Positions 214 through 45,707 of a stretch of 64,000 nucleotides of DNA are shown here, piece by piece. Every line of letters begins with the position of its first letter. The stretch's first letter is position 1. The stretch is from contig JACQFP010000049.1 of NCBI GenBank assembly GCA_016200005.1, positions 1 to 64,000 on the forward strand, given 5' to 3'. The position numbers and the translations under genes are program-made. The stretch is from Verrucomicrobiota bacterium. GTDB taxonomy: Bacteria; Verrucomicrobiota; Verrucomicrobiia; Limisphaerales; PALSA-1396. Below the pieces are notes generated by a model. It searched no databases. It was not told where the DNA came from and was given only the letters and a program-made list of their open reading frames with translations.

Positions 214-1776
214 GTGCCTGCGACGGAACACATTCGCAAAAAGTTGAACGATCTGCCCCACAAGCCCGGCATCTATTTGATGAAGGACCGGTTCGGGACG
301 GTGATTTACGTCGGCAAGGCGCGTGATTTGCGCAAGCGGGTCAGCCAGTATTTTCATCCATCGCGGCGCATGGGCTGGGACTTGAAGTTCAACGCGCTGG
401 TCGAAGCTGTTCACGACTTCGATGTGCACACGGTGAAAAGCGAGCCGGAGGCGCTGTTGCTCGAAAGCAAACTCATCAAGGAGTTTCATCCGCGCTACAA
501 CGTCAGTTTCCGCGACGACAAACGCTTCATCCTGCTCAAGGTCAATTTGAACGACCCGATTCCGCGCTTTACGTTCACCCGCATCAAACAAGAGGACGGC
601 GCGCGTTACTTCGGTCCGTTCACGGATTCAGGCGCGGCGCGGTGGACGTTGGCGTTCGCCCGCAAACAATTCAACTTGCGCGGTTGCCGTCCATTGACGC
701 CGAACAAAACGGATTACAAGCATTGTCTCTACGCCAATTTGAAATACTGCACCGCGCCGTGCATCGGCAACGTGACGCGTGAACAATATCTGCAACAGGT
801 GGTCGCCGCCTGCGATTTCCTTTCCGGCCAATGCGAGGAACTCAAACAACAACTCGAAGCAGAAATGAAAAAAGCGGCGAGTGCGCAGGACTACGAAAAG
901 GCAGCGTCCATCCGCGATGCGCTGGCGGACTTGCGTAGCACCACGCAAAAGACCAGCAAGTTCGAGCGTCTGCCGTACAGTTTGCCGCTGGCCATTGATC
1001 CACGAAAGGATTTGGCGGAACTGGCGAAAGCGCTCGGGTTGCCATCGCAGCCGCAACGCATCGAAGGTTTCGACATCTCCAACATCAGCGGCACGTTTGC
1101 CGTCGCGTCGCTGGTCAGTTTCAAAAATGGCCGGCCCGACCGCGCGAATTATCGTCGCTTCAAAATGAAGACGGTCGTGGGTCAGGATGATTTCGCCTGC
1201 ATGGCCGAGACGGTGCGGCGGCGGTACACGCGGTTGTTGAATGAAACAAAAGAGTCAGTCCCTTCCGGTCACGCATCACGCATCACACATCACGCATCAC
1301 TTCCCGACCTGATTCTCATCGACGGCGGCAAAGGCCAGCTCAGCGCAGCGTGTGCGGAACTGGAGAAACTTGGACTGGCGCACATTCCCGTCATCGGGTT
1401 GGCAAAGGAATTCGAGGAGATTTACCGCCCCGGCCAAAGCGCGCCTTTGCGGTTGAGCCACGATTCTGGTGCGCTGAAATTGTTGCAACGGGTGCGGGAC
1501 GAATCACACCGCTTTGCCAACACCTACAACGCCCAACTGCGTTTGAAGAAGATTTCGGAAAGCTTGCTCGATGAATTTCCCGGCATCGGCGACCAGCGTA
1601 AGGCGGCGTTGTTGAAAAAGTTCGGCTCGGTGCAACGGCTGCGTCTGGCCACGGTTGAGAAAATCGCCGAAGTCCCCGGTTTCGGCGGCAAGGCGGCGGC
1701 TGAGTTGAAGAAGTTTTTGGAGGCGCGGACCGCCTCGGAAAGAGAACCACAGATGGACACGAATTCACACGAATAG
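214..1776 (+). CDS. uvrC: UvrC, excinuclease ABC subunit C
   Basis: This subunit makes the 3' and 5' incisions around bulky lesions in nucleotide excision repair, acting with UvrA and UvrB in the cytoplasm. An N-terminal GIY-YIG nuclease domain begins at residues 19-34 (PGIYLMKD, then YVGKARDLRKR). A UVR UvrB-binding helix lies near 210-240, an RNase H-like nuclease domain contains EGFDISNISG and LILIDGGKGQ, and a C-terminal helix-hairpin-helix pair contains FPGIGDQRKAALL and VPGFGGKAA. The start is GTG. At 520 residues it is shorter than the common length of about 600 but has every domain. Two oddities come from repeats: a TCACGCA heptamer array is read in frame at 1269-1300 just before the LILIDGG strand, and the last dozen codons lie in a dispersed repeat. 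Confidence 0.93.
   Translation: MPATEHIRKKLNDLPHKPGIYLMKDRFGTVIYVGKARDLRKRVSQYFHPSRRMGWDLKFNALVEAVHDFDVHTVKSEPEALLLESKLIKEFHPRYNVSFRDDKRFILLKVNLNDPIPRFTFTRIKQEDGARYFGPFTDSGAARWTLAFARKQFNLRGCRPLTPNKTDYKHCLYANLKYCTAPCIGNVTREQYLQQVVAACDFLSGQCEELKQQLEAEMKKAASAQDYEKAASIRDALADLRSTTQKTSKFERLPYSLPLAIDPRKDLAELAKALGLPSQPQRIEGFDISNISGTFAVASLVSFKNGRPDRANYRRFKMKTVVGQDDFACMAETVRRRYTRLLNETKESVPSGHASRITHHASLPDLILIDGGKGQLSAACAELEKLGLAHIPVIGLAKEFEEIYRPGQSAPLRLSHDSGALKLLQRVRDESHRFANTYNAQLRLKKISESLLDEFPGIGDQRKAALLKKFGSVQRLRLATVEKIAEVPGFGGKAAAELKKFLEARTASEREPQMDTNSHE
1269..1300. repeat. Heptamer array inside uvrC
   Basis: Four copies of a TCACGCA unit (one variant, TCACACA) plus a partial copy lie inside the uvrC reading frame. 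They encode a His/Ala/Ser-rich stretch (HASRITHHAS) just before the conserved DLILIDGGKGQ segment, where UvrC proteins normally have a loop. The frame is kept. The unit is closely related to the arrays at 12171-12191 and 12530-12557. Confidence 0.8.
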
Positions 1777-18255: not shown

Positions 18256-18352
18256 GAACATCCAACATCGAACATCCAACATCCAACGTTCAATGCCCAA
18301 GCGTTGGTTTATGCTTTGGGTGTTCGATGTTGGATGTTGGGCGTTGGATGTT
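18256..18352. repeat. Heptamer inverted-pair hairpin between moxR and the DUF58 gene
   Basis: The left arm is a run of seven-base units (GAACATC, CAACATC, GAACATC, CAACATC, CAACGTT and more). The right arm is the complementary run (GGGTGTT, CGATGTT, GGATGTT, GGGCGTT, GGATGTT). Folded, it gives a long imperfect hairpin that fills the gap between the moxR stop and the DUF58 ATG six bases later. It may set mRNA stability or translation inside the operon. Confidence 0.85.
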
Positions 18353-19704: not shown

Positions 19705-19708
19705 TTAA

Positions 19709-19837
19709 ATCCGAAATCCGAATGTCGAAATCCGAAACAAATCCGAAGATCGAAGTCCGAACCAGAAGGCTTGACCGCATTTCGGCATTCGGAATTCGGG
19801 ATTCTTTCGGATTTCGGATTTCGGGCTTCGGATTTTT
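19709..19837. repeat. Heptamer inverted-pair hairpin between the DUF58 and transglutaminase genes
   Basis: The left arm has seven units of the ATCCGAA type, with one four-base interruption. The right arm, from about 19779, is the complementary TTCGGAT type. The two are separated by about 17 bases, so the RNA could form a stem of roughly 50 base pairs with mismatches. It ends seven bases before the next ATG. Confidence 0.85.
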
Positions 19838-22408: not shown

Positions 22409-23599
22409 TCATTTTCCAAACGGCACCTGCACGATTCTCGCCCCGCTATCATTACCGGCACTTCGTAATTTCAATTCGGTACCAACTGCGTTTGCCTCGC
22501 GCCGCACGTAACCGAGAGCAACGTTGGCTTTGAGCGTTGGTGAGGCGATGGCGCTCGTGATGTGGCCGACTTCCTTGCCGTCTTTGAACAGTTTGTCGCC
22601 GCGCACGGGCAAGGTTTTCAAATCGTCGGCCAGACGCAGGCCGCGCAGTTCGCGGTTCACGTGGCCGATGGTGTGGATGCGGTTGATGACTTCTTGGCCG
22701 ATGTAGCAGCCTTTGTTGTAACTCACCGCGCGCGCCTCGATGCCGCACTCCAGCGCAATGTTCGTCTCGTCCATGTCCGCGCCGAATCGCGGAATGCCCG
22801 CCTCGATGCGTGCCATCTCCAAAGCCATCCACCCGCACGCAAGTCCGCCGACGCTTTTCGCGGCGGCGATGAGTTTGTCAGCCACCACTCCCAATGCAGG
22901 CAATGGCACGAACAAGTCAAAGCCTGAACGATCATGTGGCTCGTGACCGCTCACCGTAGCAGCCGACGTCAGTCGGCTCTGGCTCTCCTCGGGAGAAGCT
23001 TGAGCCGACTGACGTCGGCTGCTACGACGCCCCAGCCGCGACTGCTTCATCAAATAGATTTCGCCCAGAGTCGGGTCGGTGACTTTTAAGGAACTGAGCG
23101 TCGCGTTGGGGATTTCAGCAAACAGACTCAAGCTGCGCACGACGGATCCAGCTTTTGGCCCTTGCACGCTGAGCAAGCCGTAGTGCGGCGCGACATCCAC
23201 CACTTGCACATCGTCGGCGACGATGTATTTCTCCAGCCGTTGCGTCACGACGGCGGTGAGGCCCGGCTCGAAGTCGAGCAGCAGTTCGTCTTGCAGACAG
23301 AAGATGTTGAGGTCGCTCTGCATCTTTCCCTTGGCCGTGACGAGCGCGGCGTAACAACCTTCGCCGACGCGCAGGCGTTTCACATCATTCGTGACCTGAC
23401 CGTGCAGAAAGCGAACGCGGTCCTTGCCAGTCAGGCAAAGCCGGCTGCGAAAGCTCAGTTCAATTACGCCGGCGGTTTCGCGCAACGCCGCGTGCTCCGC
23501 CAGCGCGTCACCGTAATGACTGACGACCTCCGCGCCGTTCACCTCGGCGAAGGTGGCGTTCAGGTCTTGATGAAGTTCGTGCAGAGCCAGTCTTACCAT
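22409..23599 (-). CDS. ygfZ: YgfZ/GcvT-type folate-binding protein
   Basis: The YgfZ family uses folate to help repair or assemble iron-sulfur enzymes and is related to the aminomethyltransferase GcvT. The signature KGCYIGQEVINRIHTIGHVNRELRG is split by no repeat and is clear, as are LTGKDRVRFLHGQVTNDVK and LSVQGPKAGSVVRSL. ATG at 23599 (VRLALHELHQDL) is chosen; the 26 upstream codons are not family-like. A perfect 25-base inverted repeat at 22955-23026 is read in frame in mid-protein. It adds a serine/arginine-rich stretch of about 35 residues before GFDLFVPLP. Confidence 0.88.
   Translation of the reverse strand: MVRLALHELHQDLNATFAEVNGAEVVSHYGDALAEHAALRETAGVIELSFRSRLCLTGKDRVRFLHGQVTNDVKRLRVGEGCYAALVTAKGKMQSDLNIFCLQDELLLDFEPGLTAVVTQRLEKYIVADDVQVVDVAPHYGLLSVQGPKAGSVVRSLSLFAEIPNATLSSLKVTDPTLGEIYLMKQSRLGRRSSRRQSAQASPEESQSRLTSAATVSGHEPHDRSGFDLFVPLPALGVVADKLIAAAKSVGGLACGWMALEMARIEAGIPRFGADMDETNIALECGIEARAVSYNKGCYIGQEVINRIHTIGHVNRELRGLRLADDLKTLPVRGDKLFKDGKEVGHITSAIASPTLKANVALGYVRREANAVGTELKLRSAGNDSGARIVQVPFGK
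22955..23026. repeat. Perfect 25-base inverted repeat inside ygfZ
   Basis: The arms 22955-22979 and 23002-23026 are exact reverse complements around a 22-base spacer; the core word is CCGACGTCAGTCGGCTC. The element lies fully inside the ygfZ reading frame and keeps it open. This resembles the way Rickettsia palindromic elements sit in genes. Confidence 0.92.
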
Positions 23600-23667
23600 G
23601 GAGCGAATGTAACGATTCCTCATTCGCGAAGCACAATGAAAATTGAGAAGTCGGTGTGGGCGAAAGC

Positions 23668-26737: not shown

Positions 26738-27457
26738 ATGGCCAAATTGGTTTTTGACATCGAGTCCTCCACGCTGCCACTGACAAACTTCGATGAAGTG
26801 CAGCAGGAGTATCTTTTTCGCGAGACGGAAAAAATCACCGACGTAGTCGCGCGCGAAACCCGCCGCGCCGAAATCCTTCAGCAGTTCAATCTCTGGCCCT
26901 TCACCGCCCAGGTGGTGTGCATTGCCATGCTCAATGCGGACACGGTGCGGGGTCAGGTGCTGTTCACCGCGGATGATTGCGAGGCGGACACTGCCGAGGC
27001 CGGGCCGGTCGAGTTTGTTGCCTGCGTGGATGAGACTGAACTACTGACGGCCTTTTGGGACGTGGCCCAGCATTATGAGGCGATTGTGACGTTCAATGGG
27101 CGCGGTTTTGATGTGCCCTTCCTTTACCTGCGGTCCGCTCTCTTGAACGTCCCGATCAAACGCAAGGACTGGCTCGGCTACCGTTTTCAAACTGAACCGC
27201 ATTGCGATCTGGCAGAACAACTTACATTTTACGGCGTCAGCGGTCGGGATGGGGCGGCGCGCAAGTTCAATCTCGATTTCTACTGCAAGGCCTTCGGCAT
27301 TGAATCACCCAAGAGTCACGGCGTCACGGGGCTGGACGTAAATCATCTGCTGGCGGAAGGCAAGTATCGCGAGATTGCCGAGTATTGTTTGCGGGACGTG
27401 CGCGCCACCGTGGAGCTTTACCGGATCTGGAAAGAGCGGCTGGCGGGAATCAAATGA
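26738..27457 (+). CDS. DEDD-type 3'-5' exonuclease / RNase H-like domain protein
   Basis: A 239-residue protein of the ribonuclease H-like exonuclease fold (PolB-like 3'-5' exonuclease group). The acidic motifs are visible: VFDIESSTL (Exo I), TFNGRGFDVPFLYLR (Exo II) and YCLRDVRATVELYRIW (Exo III). It probably trims single-stranded DNA or RNA in the cytoplasm. The ATG follows the AT-rich island at 26452-26737. Its stop overlaps the next gene's ATG (ATGA), so translation is coupled. Confidence 0.85.
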   Translation: MAKLVFDIESSTLPLTNFDEVQQEYLFRETEKITDVVARETRRAEILQQFNLWPFTAQVVCIAMLNADTVRGQVLFTADDCEADTAEAGPVEFVACVDETELLTAFWDVAQHYEAIVTFNGRGFDVPFLYLRSALLNVPIKRKDWLGYRFQTEPHCDLAEQLTFYGVSGRDGAARKFNLDFYCKAFGIESPKSHGVTGLDVNHLLAEGKYREIAEYCLRDVRATVELYRIWKERLAGIK

Positions 27458-28140
27458 GTGCGGAGTGCGGAGTGCGGAGTGCGGAATCCGAAGCGCGCCG
27501 CGGTCGTGAGAGGACGTTCGTTTGTTTTGCAGTCAAGGAGGAGGCGGCTGCGTTTCGAAAAATCGCAGCGGGCAGAACCGATGTTGCGATTCTCATCACC
27601 GGCATCGGACAGAACAACGCTCAAAGGTCGGTTCGCGATTTTCTCCGGCAGCATTCTCCTCAGCGTGTGTTCACCTGCGGTTTTGCCGGTGGTCTGAATC
27701 CCAAACTCAAAATTGGCGATGTGATTTTTCTCACTGTCTATCCCGATTTGGACAAGGCTCTGGCTGAGTCGGGCGCATCGCCAGCAAGTTTGTTTTGTGC
27801 ACAGCGCATCGTGACGACGGCGGCGGAAAAGCAAGAGTTGCGTCGCACCACAGGTGCCGACGCGGTGGAAATGGAATCAGGCGCGATTCAAGCCGTCTGC
27901 CGCGAGCGCGGAATTCCTTGCGCGACAGTGCGCGTGATCTCAGACACAGCCAACGAAGATTTACCGCTTAACTTCAACCGACTTGCGAAGCCGGACATGA
28001 GCCTCGATTACGGCAAGCTGGCGCTGGCAATTGCGAAATCGCCCGCGCAAATTCCAGCACTGTTGCGGCTGCAGAAGAATTGCCGGTTCGCAGCGGAGCA
28101 GCTCGCCCGTGTATTGGCGAAGGTCATCTGGCCGCCGTAG
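27454..28140 (+). CDS. Hopanoid-associated nucleoside phosphorylase family protein (HpnG-like)
   Basis: A protein of the MTAN/purine phosphorylase superfamily. HpnG removes adenine from adenosylhopane in the synthesis of extended hopanoids. The family start is FVCFAVKEEAAAFRK, followed by ITGIGQNNAQ, the turn CGFAGGLNPKLKIGDV, and the active-site segment DAVEMESGAIQAVCRERGIP. RVISDTANEDLPLNF has the conserved Asp. The first ten or so codons are translated from a GAGTGCG heptamer array, so the natural N-terminus may be later. A futalosine or MTA hydrolase role is possible, but HpnK- and HpnD-like neighbours favour a hopanoid role. Confidence 0.75.
   Translation: MSAECGVRSAESEARRGRERTFVCFAVKEEAAAFRKIAAGRTDVAILITGIGQNNAQRSVRDFLRQHSPQRVFTCGFAGGLNPKLKIGDVIFLTVYPDLDKALAESGASPASLFCAQRIVTTAAEKQELRRTTGADAVEMESGAIQAVCRERGIPCATVRVISDTANEDLPLNFNRLAKPDMSLDYGKLALAIAKSPAQIPALLRLQKNCRFAAEQLARVLAKVIWPP
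27456..27490. repeat. Heptamer array at the start of the HpnG-like gene
   Basis: Four exact tandem copies of GAGTGCG are followed by a diverged unit GAATCCG. The array begins at the overlap of the two genes and encodes the first residues of the downstream protein (SAECGVRSAES). Confidence 0.85.
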
Positions 28141-43105: not shown

Positions 43106-43739
43106 CTGGGCCACGCCGGCGGGACAGTTACTCCAGAAATTTCTGGTCGCGCTGCCCACGAATCGGCCATTTCATTTCACCATCTATGGTTCGGCGCCGC
43201 TGCAACTCACCGTGGATCGCCAGTTGTTGAGCGGCGATGTGGATTTGTTTTCCGACGACGATGAGGATTTGTCGGCCTTCATCGCGGCAGCCAAACTGGA
43301 TAAGACGCAAGGCGGTTTTTACCTCGAACCGGGTTTCGAACTGAGCTTCCGCACCAGCCCGCGCTGGCGTCAGCGCGCGGCCAAGGTTCAACGCGGAAAC
43401 GTAACCCTTACCATTCCCCACCCGTTGGACATTCTCATCGGCAAACTGGATCGCCTCGACGCCAAGGATCTGAAAGCGTTCGAGCGAGTCGTCCAACTCA
43501 CAGGGCATCCCACGGCGGACGAATTCAAACGCGAACTCCAGAATGCGCTGGATTTGTTCCGTCCCGCCTTTGACGAGGATTCGCCAAATCGTTACCCGGA
43601 AAACACACGGCGGCTGTGGCGCGAAATCTTCCATGCCGAGATTGATGTCCGACGCGATATCATTGAGCCGGCCAACGCGCGGAGAAAACAAGGCTACGGC
43701 GAACTGCCGCCGGATTACAAAAAGGTTCTTGGCCAATGA
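43068..43739 (+). CDS. Nucleotidyltransferase-fold protein (AbiEii/DUF6036-like), putative toxin
   Basis: A 223-residue protein with the minimal nucleotidyltransferase pattern: FHFTIYGSAPLQLTV, then SGDVDLFSDDDEDL with the D-x-D metal ligands. Later PHPLDILIGKLDRLDAKDL resembles the third conserved block of AbiEii and DUF6036 proteins. Those families form type IV toxin-antitoxin or abortive infection systems that modify tRNA. The start may lie further downstream, as the first residues overlap the upstream gene. Its TGA overlaps the ribD ATG, so the pair is translationally coupled to riboflavin synthesis. Confidence 0.75.
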   Translation: MPSIKNWWAGEIDWATPAGQLLQKFLVALPTNRPFHFTIYGSAPLQLTVDRQLLSGDVDLFSDDDEDLSAFIAAAKLDKTQGGFYLEPGFELSFRTSPRWRQRAAKVQRGNVTLTIPHPLDILIGKLDRLDAKDLKAFERVVQLTGHPTADEFKRELQNALDLFRPAFDEDSPNRYPENTRRLWREIFHAEIDVRRDIIEPANARRKQGYGELPPDYKKVLGQ

Positions 43740-45034
43740 CCTGGCTGAGTTCGACCGATCTCGCCGACAAGGACGTGGGTTTCATGCGCCTCGCCCTCCG
43801 GCTCGCCCGACGCGGTTACGGCACGACTTCGCCGAATCCAATGGTGGGCGCGGTGCTGGTGAAGGGCGGCAAAATCATCGGACGCGGCTGGCATCGGCGC
43901 GCGGGTTTACCCCACGCGGAGATCGAGGCGCTTTGCGACGCGCACAAGGGCGGCCACAATCCCTGCGGCGCGACGCTTTTCGTGACGCTCGAACCCTGTT
44001 GCACGCACGGGCGCACGCCGCCTTGCACGGACGCGATCATCGCAGCAGGCCTCAAGCGCGTGATCGTTGGGGCGACTGATCCGAATCCGAAGCACGCCGG
44101 AAAGGGTATCAAGATTTTGCGACGCGCGGGGATCGAAGTGAACCAAATTGGTCAAACCCACCCCCGCCCCCTCCAAGGGAGAGGATCATTTGGTCGCCCG
44201 CGCCCGGCTAGTTCCCCTCTTGGAAGGGGTAAGGGGTGGGTTCACGCGAACAATCCAGCAAGACGTATCGCCGGCGAGTGCGCGAAGCTCAACGAGTCAT
44301 TCAATCATTGGATTGTCCGTCGCACACCATTCGTCACGGTGAAGGCCGCAATGACGCTGGACGGAAAAATCGCGACGGCCAGCGGCGAATCAAAATGGAT
44401 AACCGGTCCGCAAGCACGCGCTTACGGAATTAAGTTGCGGCAAGGGAGCGACGCGATTCTGGTCGGCATCAACACGATTCTGGCGGATGACCCTAGCTTG
44501 ACGGCGCGGACGAGGAAAAACATTCAACATTCAAAATCCAACATCCAACGCCCAAGATTGCGCCGCATCGTTCTGGATTCGCTGGCGCGCACGCCGCTGA
44601 ACGCAAAGGTTGTGAGGGACGAAGACGCCGCGTTGACAACGATTGTGGTGAGCAAACACGCGCCGAAAAGTCGTGTGGCGGCGTTGAGAAAGCATGTGAA
44701 CGTCATCATCGCGCCGACCAAAAAATCGCAAATCGCAAATCGCAAATCGCAAATCAATTTGCGCTGGCTGCTGAAGAAACTTGGTTCAGAAAACGTGACG
44801 AGCCTGCTGGTCGAAGGTGGTGGCGAGGTGAACGCATCGTTCCTGCTCGGCGGTTTCGCGCAACGCGTCGCGTTTTTCTATGCGCCAAAAATTCTGAGCG
44901 GTCGCGATTCACGCAAGGCGGTGGCGGGAGCGGGTGTGGAGCGACTCGCGGACGGGATTCAACTCAGCGCTGTGGAGTGGCGGCGACTGGGACCGGATTT
45001 GTTGTTGACCGCGCGGGTTGGAGTTCAAGCTTGA
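43736..45034 (+). CDS. ribD: Bifunctional riboflavin deaminase-reductase RibD
   Basis: RibD deaminates and then reduces the pyrimidine intermediate from GTP in riboflavin synthesis. The deaminase has RGYGTTSPNPMVGAVLVKGG, LPHAEIEAL with the zinc His-Ala-Glu, and LEPCCTHGRTPPCTDAI with the two zinc cysteines. The reductase has FVTVKAAMTLDGKIATASGE and SLLVEGGGEVNASFL. The 432-residue length is 50-60 above normal. Three in-frame repeat insertions account for the excess: a palindrome at 44155-44242 in the inter-domain linker and heptamer arrays at 44519-44560 and 44723-44757 in reductase loops. The stop lies in another repeat. Confidence 0.93.
   Translation: MTWLSSTDLADKDVGFMRLALRLARRGYGTTSPNPMVGAVLVKGGKIIGRGWHRRAGLPHAEIEALCDAHKGGHNPCGATLFVTLEPCCTHGRTPPCTDAIIAAGLKRVIVGATDPNPKHAGKGIKILRRAGIEVNQIGQTHPRPLQGRGSFGRPRPASSPLGRGKGWVHANNPARRIAGECAKLNESFNHWIVRRTPFVTVKAAMTLDGKIATASGESKWITGPQARAYGIKLRQGSDAILVGINTILADDPSLTARTRKNIQHSKSNIQRPRLRRIVLDSLARTPLNAKVVRDEDAALTTIVVSKHAPKSRVAALRKHVNVIIAPTKKSQIANRKSQINLRWLLKKLGSENVTSLLVEGGGEVNASFLLGGFAQRVAFFYAPKILSGRDSRKAVAGAGVERLADGIQLSAVEWRRLGPDLLLTARVGVQA
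44155..44242. repeat. G/C-rich palindrome inside ribD
   Basis: AACCCACCCCCGCCCCCTCC on the left pairs with GGAAGGGGTAAGGGGTGGGTT (read as its last 20 bases) on the right. The 88-base element is read in frame and encodes proline/glycine/arginine-rich sequence (THPRPLQGRG, SSPLGRGKGW) between the two enzyme domains. The arms resemble those of the CCCTCACCC family. Confidence 0.85.
44519..44560. repeat. Heptamer array inside ribD (first)
   Basis: Six seven-base units (AACATTC twice, AAAATCC, AACATCC, AACGCCC, AAGATTG) encode NIQHSKSNIQRPR in a reductase-domain loop just before the LRRIVLDS strand. The unit is the same kind as in the hairpin at 18256-18352. Confidence 0.85.
44723..44757. repeat. 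Heptamer array inside ribD (second)
   Basis: Four exact copies of AAATCGC and one variant are read in frame as KSQIANRKSQINL, between a beta strand ending VIIAPTK and the helix LRWLLKKLG. Related to the array at 40382-40409. Confidence 0.88.
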
Positions 45035-45090
45035 GCTTGTTTTCCAGAGCGGCTTCAACAAACTCAGACCAGCCGAAGCTTGAACTCCAA
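45018..45090. repeat. Palindromic element (GGAGTTCACGCT family), copy 3
   Basis: TTGGAGTTCAAGCTTGAGCT on the left and GAAGCTTGAACTCCAA on the right. The left arm contains the ribD stop codon, and the right arm ends six bases before the ribE ATG, so the element fills the ribD-ribE gap. Confidence 0.85.
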
Positions 45091-45095
45091 CGGCC

Positions 45096-45707
45096 ATGTT
45101 CACAGGAATCATTGAAGAAACGGGCGTTGTCGAACGCATCACGAAGACTGCGAAGGCGATTGAATTGACGTTGCGCGCGCAACGTTGCGGGCGCGGCTTG
45201 AAAGCGGGCGACAGTCTGGCCGTCAACGGTTGTTGTCTCACGGTGGCGAGGATCAAATCGCGCGGTCGTTCCAAAATCGTGCAACTGGATTTGCTTCAGG
45301 AAACCTGGCAACGAACGAATCTGCGTTTTGCCCACGTCGATTCGCTGATCAATCTGGAACGCCCGCTGCCCGTCAATGGGCGTTTGGGCGGGCACTTCGT
45401 CACCGGTCACATTGATGGGGCTGGAGAAATCATTCGCTGGGAGCGTGCCGGGCGGGACCACGTTCTGGACATCGCCGCGCCACCAGACGTGATGCGCTAC
45501 ATCGTGTTCAAAGGCTCGATTGCGGTGGATGGCATCAGTCTGACCGTGGCGGCGGTGCGGAAGAAAAGTTTTCGCATCTGGATCATCCCGCACACTTACG
45601 AAGTCACGGCATTGCGGGAACGGAAAGTGGGCGATGCGGTAAACTTGGAAGCGGACATCCTGGGCAAATATGTCCGGCAGTTTCTCAAGGCCGGGAAGCC
45701 GGCTTGA
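45096..45707 (+). CDS. ribE: Riboflavin synthase alpha subunit
   Basis: Converts two 6,7-dimethyl-8-ribityllumazine molecules to riboflavin. The N-terminus MFTGIIEETGVVERI is diagnostic. The two lumazine-binding barrels repeat the pattern: LAVNGCCLTV and GHFVTGHIDG in the first half, IAVDGISLTVAAV and NLEADILGKYVRQFL in the second. The 203-residue length is normal. It follows ribD, so the two probably form one unit. No FMN riboswitch is seen before ribD or ribE. Confidence 0.95.
   Translation: MFTGIIEETGVVERITKTAKAIELTLRAQRCGRGLKAGDSLAVNGCCLTVARIKSRGRSKIVQLDLLQETWQRTNLRFAHVDSLINLERPLPVNGRLGGHFVTGHIDGAGEIIRWERAGRDHVLDIAAPPDVMRYIVFKGSIAVDGISLTVAAVRKKSFRIWIIPHTYEVTALRERKVGDAVNLEADILGKYVRQFLKAGKPA

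Follow-up and report, generated by a model that had tools for sequence, protein, structure and literature searches.

How a conserved enzyme gene can harbor several repeats and remain readable is the question raised by the ribD gene of the window, that is, the whole stretch of 64,000 nucleotides analysed here. Within its reading frame lie a palindrome and two tandem arrays of 7 bp, and a further palindrome overlaps its end (Table 1). Thus, we asked whether these segments are insertions, whether ribD is a special target for them, and which process could have placed them there.

The ribD Gene and Its Repeat Elements

Table 1. Features of the window discussed in the text (positions are those of the window).
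Feature	Position	Strand	Notes
ribD	43736-45034	+	Bifunctional riboflavin deaminase/reductase (vitamin-B2 enzyme), 432 aa
Palindrome, family A	44155-44242	+	In the inter-domain linker, read in the ribD frame
Heptamer array 1 (AACATTC/AACATCC, degenerate)	44519-44560	+	Loop after DDPSLTAR, aa 262-275
Heptamer array 2 (AAATCGC)	44723-44755	+	Loop before the INLRW helix, aa 330-341
Palindrome, family D	45018-45090	+	Between ribD and ribE
ribE	45096-45707	+	Riboflavin synthase; begins directly after palindrome D
GTAG-tagged palindrome, family E (GTAGCAGCCGACGT..ACGTCGGCTGCTAC)	22956-23025	.	Inside called gene 22409-23623
Heptamer array (TCACGCA)	1269-1300	+	Inside uvrC-like ORF 214-1776, aa 352-363; TRF

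The four elements that the original prediction had located in ribD were all recovered at their positions by inspection of the sequence and by TRF. Palindrome A (88 nt, beginning with AACCC) has arms of about 30 nt each (AACCCACCCC..CCTCC / GGAAGGGG..GGTGGGTT) and is part of a linker stretch of 45 residues (aa 134-178). For array 1, TRF called 44519-44549 with the unit AACATCC, the repeat continuing in degenerate form up to 44560; array 2 consists of 4.7 copies with a 100% match. Palindrome D (73 nt, beginning with TTGGAG, arms TTGGAGTTCAAGCTT..AAGCTTGAACTCCAA) contributes the last ribD codons (GVQA) and the stop codon (GCT-TGA, the stop at 45032-45034), so that the fourth element does terminate the gene, as had been proposed. 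At the opposite end, the ribD start and the stop of the upstream ORF overlap by ATGA.

The DNA hairpin of palindrome D is more stable than its dinucleotide shuffles (z -4.6). For palindrome A, the single-strand hairpin shows no such excess stability (z -1.5), and hairpin stability was thus rejected as proof of this element; for the same reason, the evidence for palindrome A is its copy number, reported below, and not its folding energy.

RibD scores 320 bits on the TIGR00326 profile (cut-off 156), and the conserved motifs are intact, in agreement with the original prediction. This equivalog score, together with the match of its fold to that of Bacillus subtilis RibG, places the protein in the RibD family. 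The relatives' genomes are metagenome-assembled, which might suggest an assembly artefact or a pseudogene; however, the frame is open over 432 residues, every motif is present, the coding score is clear, and the same positions are filled in independent assemblies, so that such an explanation is hardly credible.

Insertion Status and Structure of the RibD Loops

To place the segments in a comparative frame, the window RibD was aligned with 85 others from Limisphaerales (Verrucomicrobiota) and relatives, giving 86 distinct sequences; the close relatives of the window genome are Limisphaerales MAGs. At the inter-domain linker (site 1), 67 of the 86 proteins have seven residues and the window RibD has 45. 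The loop holding array 1 (site 2) is naturally variable: it counts 20 residues in the window RibD, compared to about 10-12 in the relatives with the shortest version, and is likewise long in Escherichia coli RibD. The loop holding array 2 (site 3) has nine residues in 54 of the 86 sequences and 16 in the window RibD, the gain of seven residues corresponding to 21 nt, i.e., three units. A second peak of site-3 lengths lies at 16 residues (11 sequences), again three heptamers. Since most of the other 85 proteins lack the residues, the ribD repeats are insertions; nor were the same residues found conserved in distant RibD proteins.

The alignment to B. subtilis RibG shows gaps at all three stretches, and this protein has only two residues between the two aligned domains. 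An AlphaFold model of the window RibD, built from a 54-sequence alignment, has a mean pLDDT of 88.7; its internal lows fall mainly at residues 140-170 and 261-270, and around 331-340 the value dips to 78. The model matches B. subtilis RibG over most of its length. The inserts thus occupy the least confident internal loops of the model. The RibG gaps, the low-pLDDT blocks, and the fold match together put these loops outside the conserved fold; according to the model, and provided that the gene is expressed, the inserts would be translated as surface loops. That the segments were inserted in frame, into a linker and into loops, is therefore upheld by both the relatives and the predicted structure.

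Slot Reuse among RibD Proteins

The same positions are filled with different repeats in different species. Among the 86 RibD sequences we found 25 period-7 arrays, all of them in site 2 or site 3 and none elsewhere, and autocorrelation at lags 3-12 revealed that lag 7 alone is enriched at the two sites (z 13.4 and 14.7). The site-3 units comprise AAATCGC, AAATCCA, AATTCAA, AATCGCC, CAATCGG, AAATCGA, TCACGCC, CACGCCC, TGTCACG, and ATTCGTC: the unit changes with the species, and the frame, the position, and often the length (+7 residues) stay constant. Site 1 behaves similarly with palindromes, of which three families (A, B, and C) occur there. Family A is found in the window genome and B in G001 (L007), the other member of the genus, the closest relatives L006 and L007 thus being A and B at the linker; B is also present in L008, L011, and L146, and C in L009, L136, L139, and L140, with the sister pair L140/L146 having C and B, respectively. 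Site 3 itself is filled by half of palindrome B in L007 and by C in L136.

In small samples of 20-40 kb per genome, heptamer arrays were seen in the majority of the close-clade members and in none of the more distant genomes. A distant comparison set of 42 further RibD sequences was also considered. The RibD of L193 (Nitrospinota, period 7) and that of L208 (Nitrospiraceae, period 8) carry an array in the same site-2 loop; the L193 protein harbors, in another loop, a further array and a palindrome-like sequence.

Part of the slot reuse is explained by shared ancestry, and related species are not independent samples. A rival reading is that each loop inherited a single ancestral heptamer array, whose units were re-homogenised by slippage or conversion rather than inserted anew. 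Site-3 loops that hold an array cluster in a single clade of the RibD tree, they share reading frame and length, and some units are one base apart (AAATTCA, AAATCCA, AAATCGA, AAATCGC), all of which would fit. However, the unrelated units TCACGCC, TGTCACG, and ATTCGTC reside in the same loop, which is also the one occupied by the palindromes of L007 and L136; L009, inside the clade, is empty (nine residues); and arrays exist beyond the clade, in L015, L141, and L157, as well as in other phyla (L193, L208). We regard a single inherited array as a serious possibility, somewhat short of even odds.

The recurrence of filled loops in many species and, for one loop, in two further phyla, together with the second modal length of 16 residues at site 3, might also indicate that the loops are functional (oligomer contact, regulation, or disorder-based binding), selection keeping the length and any repeat serving as filling. 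Such a role appears improbable: the residues are missing from most relatives, the composition is unconstrained, with palindromes, basic repeats, and empty states all represented, and unrelated genes undergo the same process. The inserted residues are themselves most likely functionless.

A further possibility concerns the origin of the units. A hairpin or quasipalindrome could copy a downstream coding 7-mer in inverted orientation, slippage then multiplying it. The site-3 units agree with the reverse complement of the downstream flank at 5.36 of 7 bases, compared to 4.85 ± 0.17 for permuted units, a value reached by 0.15% of 2000 permutations; L006, L008, and L012 match at 7/7. In the genome sample described below, inverted copies within 30 nt accompany five arrays against an expectation of 1.5 ± 1.2. 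The comparison is, however, post hoc, and the 11 species behind it are not independent; for several arrays there is no match, and the fold of array 2 with its flank is no more stable than shuffles. As the source of the units, templating by the flank is rather unlikely; the inverted match would possibly fit seeding by a hairpin or a template switch, and we treat it as a lead.

Distribution of the Repeat Families in the Genome

The genome sample comprised 742 kb including the window, with 610 genes called by our own hexamer model (approximate outside ribD). It contains 66 period-7 arrays, compared to none in a first-order Markov control; the other periods from 4 to 13 gave 0-4 arrays each, except for period 8 with 14. 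About 30 different heptamer units are represented. Since 37 of the 66 arrays lie inside called genes at a coding fraction of about 0.88, period-7 arrays are depleted in genes, though far from excluded. The ribD arrays are thus STRR-like in being 7-bp tandem repeats dispersed through the genome. The 14 period-8 arrays, of the ACCCAAAT and TACTCCAT types, are all extragenic (0/14 in called genes); 8 is likewise coprime with 3.

Palindromes A and D are also multi-copy. Family A gave 56 BLAST matches genome-wide and family D 74, which we read as roughly 40 and 50 loci, respectively, the matches exceeding the loci because some loci match on both strands. Palindrome A lies within a called gene at five of about 18 loci examined, and D within called genes at a minority of the loci examined; one of the latter genes, matching rlmD, has its profile match split into two stretches. 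Neither A nor D bears a GTAG or CGTC tag. Family E shows the GTAG..CTAC form, with several copies in uvrA, and is absent from ribD. The idea that all heptamer arrays sit within the loops of GTAG palindromes was rejected: this holds for some E loops only, and the ribD arrays stand alone.

The palindromes carry inverted repeats, and an exact empty site, against which a target-site duplication of the MITE kind could be scored, was not found for them; no transposase linked to families A, D, or E was found either. The genome has four Y1_Tnp (RAYT-like) genes. Within 1.5 kb of these four genes there were no arms of E or D and a single arm of A, in L134; a simple association of the palindromes with a RAYT transposase was sought and did not emerge. 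In L134, the Y1 (RAYT-like) transposase gene is flanked on both sides by perfect 16-17-nt inverted repeats (CGGAGCGCGGCTGTGT), apparently the palindrome family of the transposase gene itself.

Two regions of the window (18257-18352 and 19707-19835) harbor inverted pairs of heptamer arrays, AACATCC/GGATGTT and AAATCCG/CGGATTT, placed by the gene calls between genes or at gene edges; these pairs could form long hairpins, possibly acting as terminators.

Other Genes Harboring the Repeats

At least one repeat of these families was found in 39 of the 610 genes of the 742-kb sample (about 6%), as called by our hexamer model. The original prediction regarded so many insertions in one housekeeping gene as unusual; this view is not supported, given the share of decorated genes and the existence of a uvrA paralogue that holds six arrays in addition to several palindromes, and ribD was likewise rejected as a special target. 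Identities of the decorated genes were read from their translations and are in some cases backed by Pfam. Among these genes are uvrC, rimO (three arrays), mutL, and murG, as well as an aminotransferase gene in which two arrays lie within, or adjoin, GTAG palindromes. When uvrA, rimO, and murG were aligned to solved structures, most of their arrays coincided with gaps or with stretches left unaligned. In five relatives, the corresponding uvrA slots are either empty or occupied by different sequence, which often resembles repeats.

The uvrA paralogue just mentioned (L089 5591-8977; C6:65591-68977 of the same genome) has all six arrays in frame; its GTAG palindromes are also in frame, and the loop of one of these palindromes bears a heptamer array. 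The paralogue further contains a LSPSDGERDGVRG element, again in frame. Elsewhere in the genome (C13:2236-13984, L036), many different heptamer arrays form a dense cluster around an exosortase-like gene, five of them within that gene and in frame. In the window, the called start of a nucleosidase-like ORF (27454-28140) lies within a GAGTGCG heptamer array, and the true start may be located downstream.

A Possible Scenario for the Origin of the Insertions

On the basis of these data, we propose unselective insertion and slippage, filtered for in-frame events in loops, the lengthened loops then serving as buffers; we assign this scenario a probability of roughly 70%. Elements would insert or slip without regard to genes, the palindromes being presumably mobile and the arrays probably arising by replication slippage. 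In a conserved gene, an event would persist only if its net length kept the frame and the resulting peptide fell in a flexible surface loop, where it would be neutral. In ribD, the events retained would be those in the inter-domain linker and in two loops, with the fourth element at the gene end now providing the stop. A stop-free heptamer unit would be read as one cycle of seven residues in all three frames of its strand, the cycle being identical because 7 and 3 are coprime; moreover, three units (21 nt) make exactly seven residues, and heptamer arrays would therefore be easily absorbed. A loop once lengthened would act as a buffer, earlier elements giving way there to later ones and leaving fixed slots with changing contents.

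Coprimality alone cannot explain this tolerance, because none of the period-8 arrays is genic. A dedicated, 7-bp-specific process, seeded by inverted copying of the flank, could write and rewrite heptamer arrays at fixed, permissive loops. If so, orthologous loops would keep length and period and have their sequence repeatedly replaced; we consider this process unlikely.

Unselective insertion followed by loop filtering would be a case, on a large scale, of proteins absorbing selfish or slipping DNA. One and the same enzyme loop has no repeat in part of the species and, in the remainder, a wide choice of different ones, and what was a curiosity of Rickettsia and Opitutus genes becomes a system with many natural replicates. 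It permits direct tests of loop tolerance, of the rate at which insertions are exchanged, and of why the unit of bacterial tandem repeats is so often 7 bp long. For annotation, it is a warning that loop residues in such genomes may be repeats and not conserved protein.

Comparison with Known Systems

One close likeness is to intragenic GTAG/CGTC REPs. According to the parts of PMC3733652 covered here, Opitutus terrae (Verrucomicrobia) has double REP insertions in both uvrA genes, the ends of such elements can supply stop codons, and two Xanthomonas species hold different REPs at about the same recB site. As in the present case, these are short palindromes read in frame within conserved genes, uvrA among them, and the phylum is the same. 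Our family E fits that description of GTAG REPs, whereas palindromes A and D of ribD are untagged; heptamer arrays, or order-wide slots with differing content, are not described in those parts of the paper.

The likeness to the palindromic elements of Rickettsia genes put forward by the original prediction holds in part. RPEs are palindromes translated in frame within housekeeping proteins and probably neutral (Ogata 2000, 2002, reviewed in PMC2229807), and the rickettsial guanylate kinase stays active with its insert (PMC2229807). Palindrome A is of the same kind, an in-frame palindrome in a conserved protein whose translation is suggested by the open frame. RPEs measure 105-146 bp, A 88 and D 73, and the likeness drawn here is one of kind. 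The two heptamer arrays, which make up two of the three ribD inserts, are different, being tandem arrays and not palindromes: they resemble STRR-like 7-bp repeats, with a unit varying between species.

Heptamer repeats are themselves known from cyanobacterial STRRs and from the G-rich heptamers of Xanthomonas and Nostoc (PMC4692102); in the P6b stem of the Nostoc trnL intron, one fixed site holds either of two heptamer motifs, repeatedly replaced (PMC4476775). They share with ours the 7-bp period and the dispersal; however, those repeats are intronic (Nostoc P6b) or under-represented in coding regions, whereas ours lie in frame in many protein genes. In the open-access literature, we found no precedent for heptamer arrays in fixed protein loops with differing units across an order. 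Thus, earlier publications already cover both heptamer repeats and palindromes inside Verrucomicrobiota genes (uvrA of O. terrae), and what the present analysis adds to them is the slot reuse.
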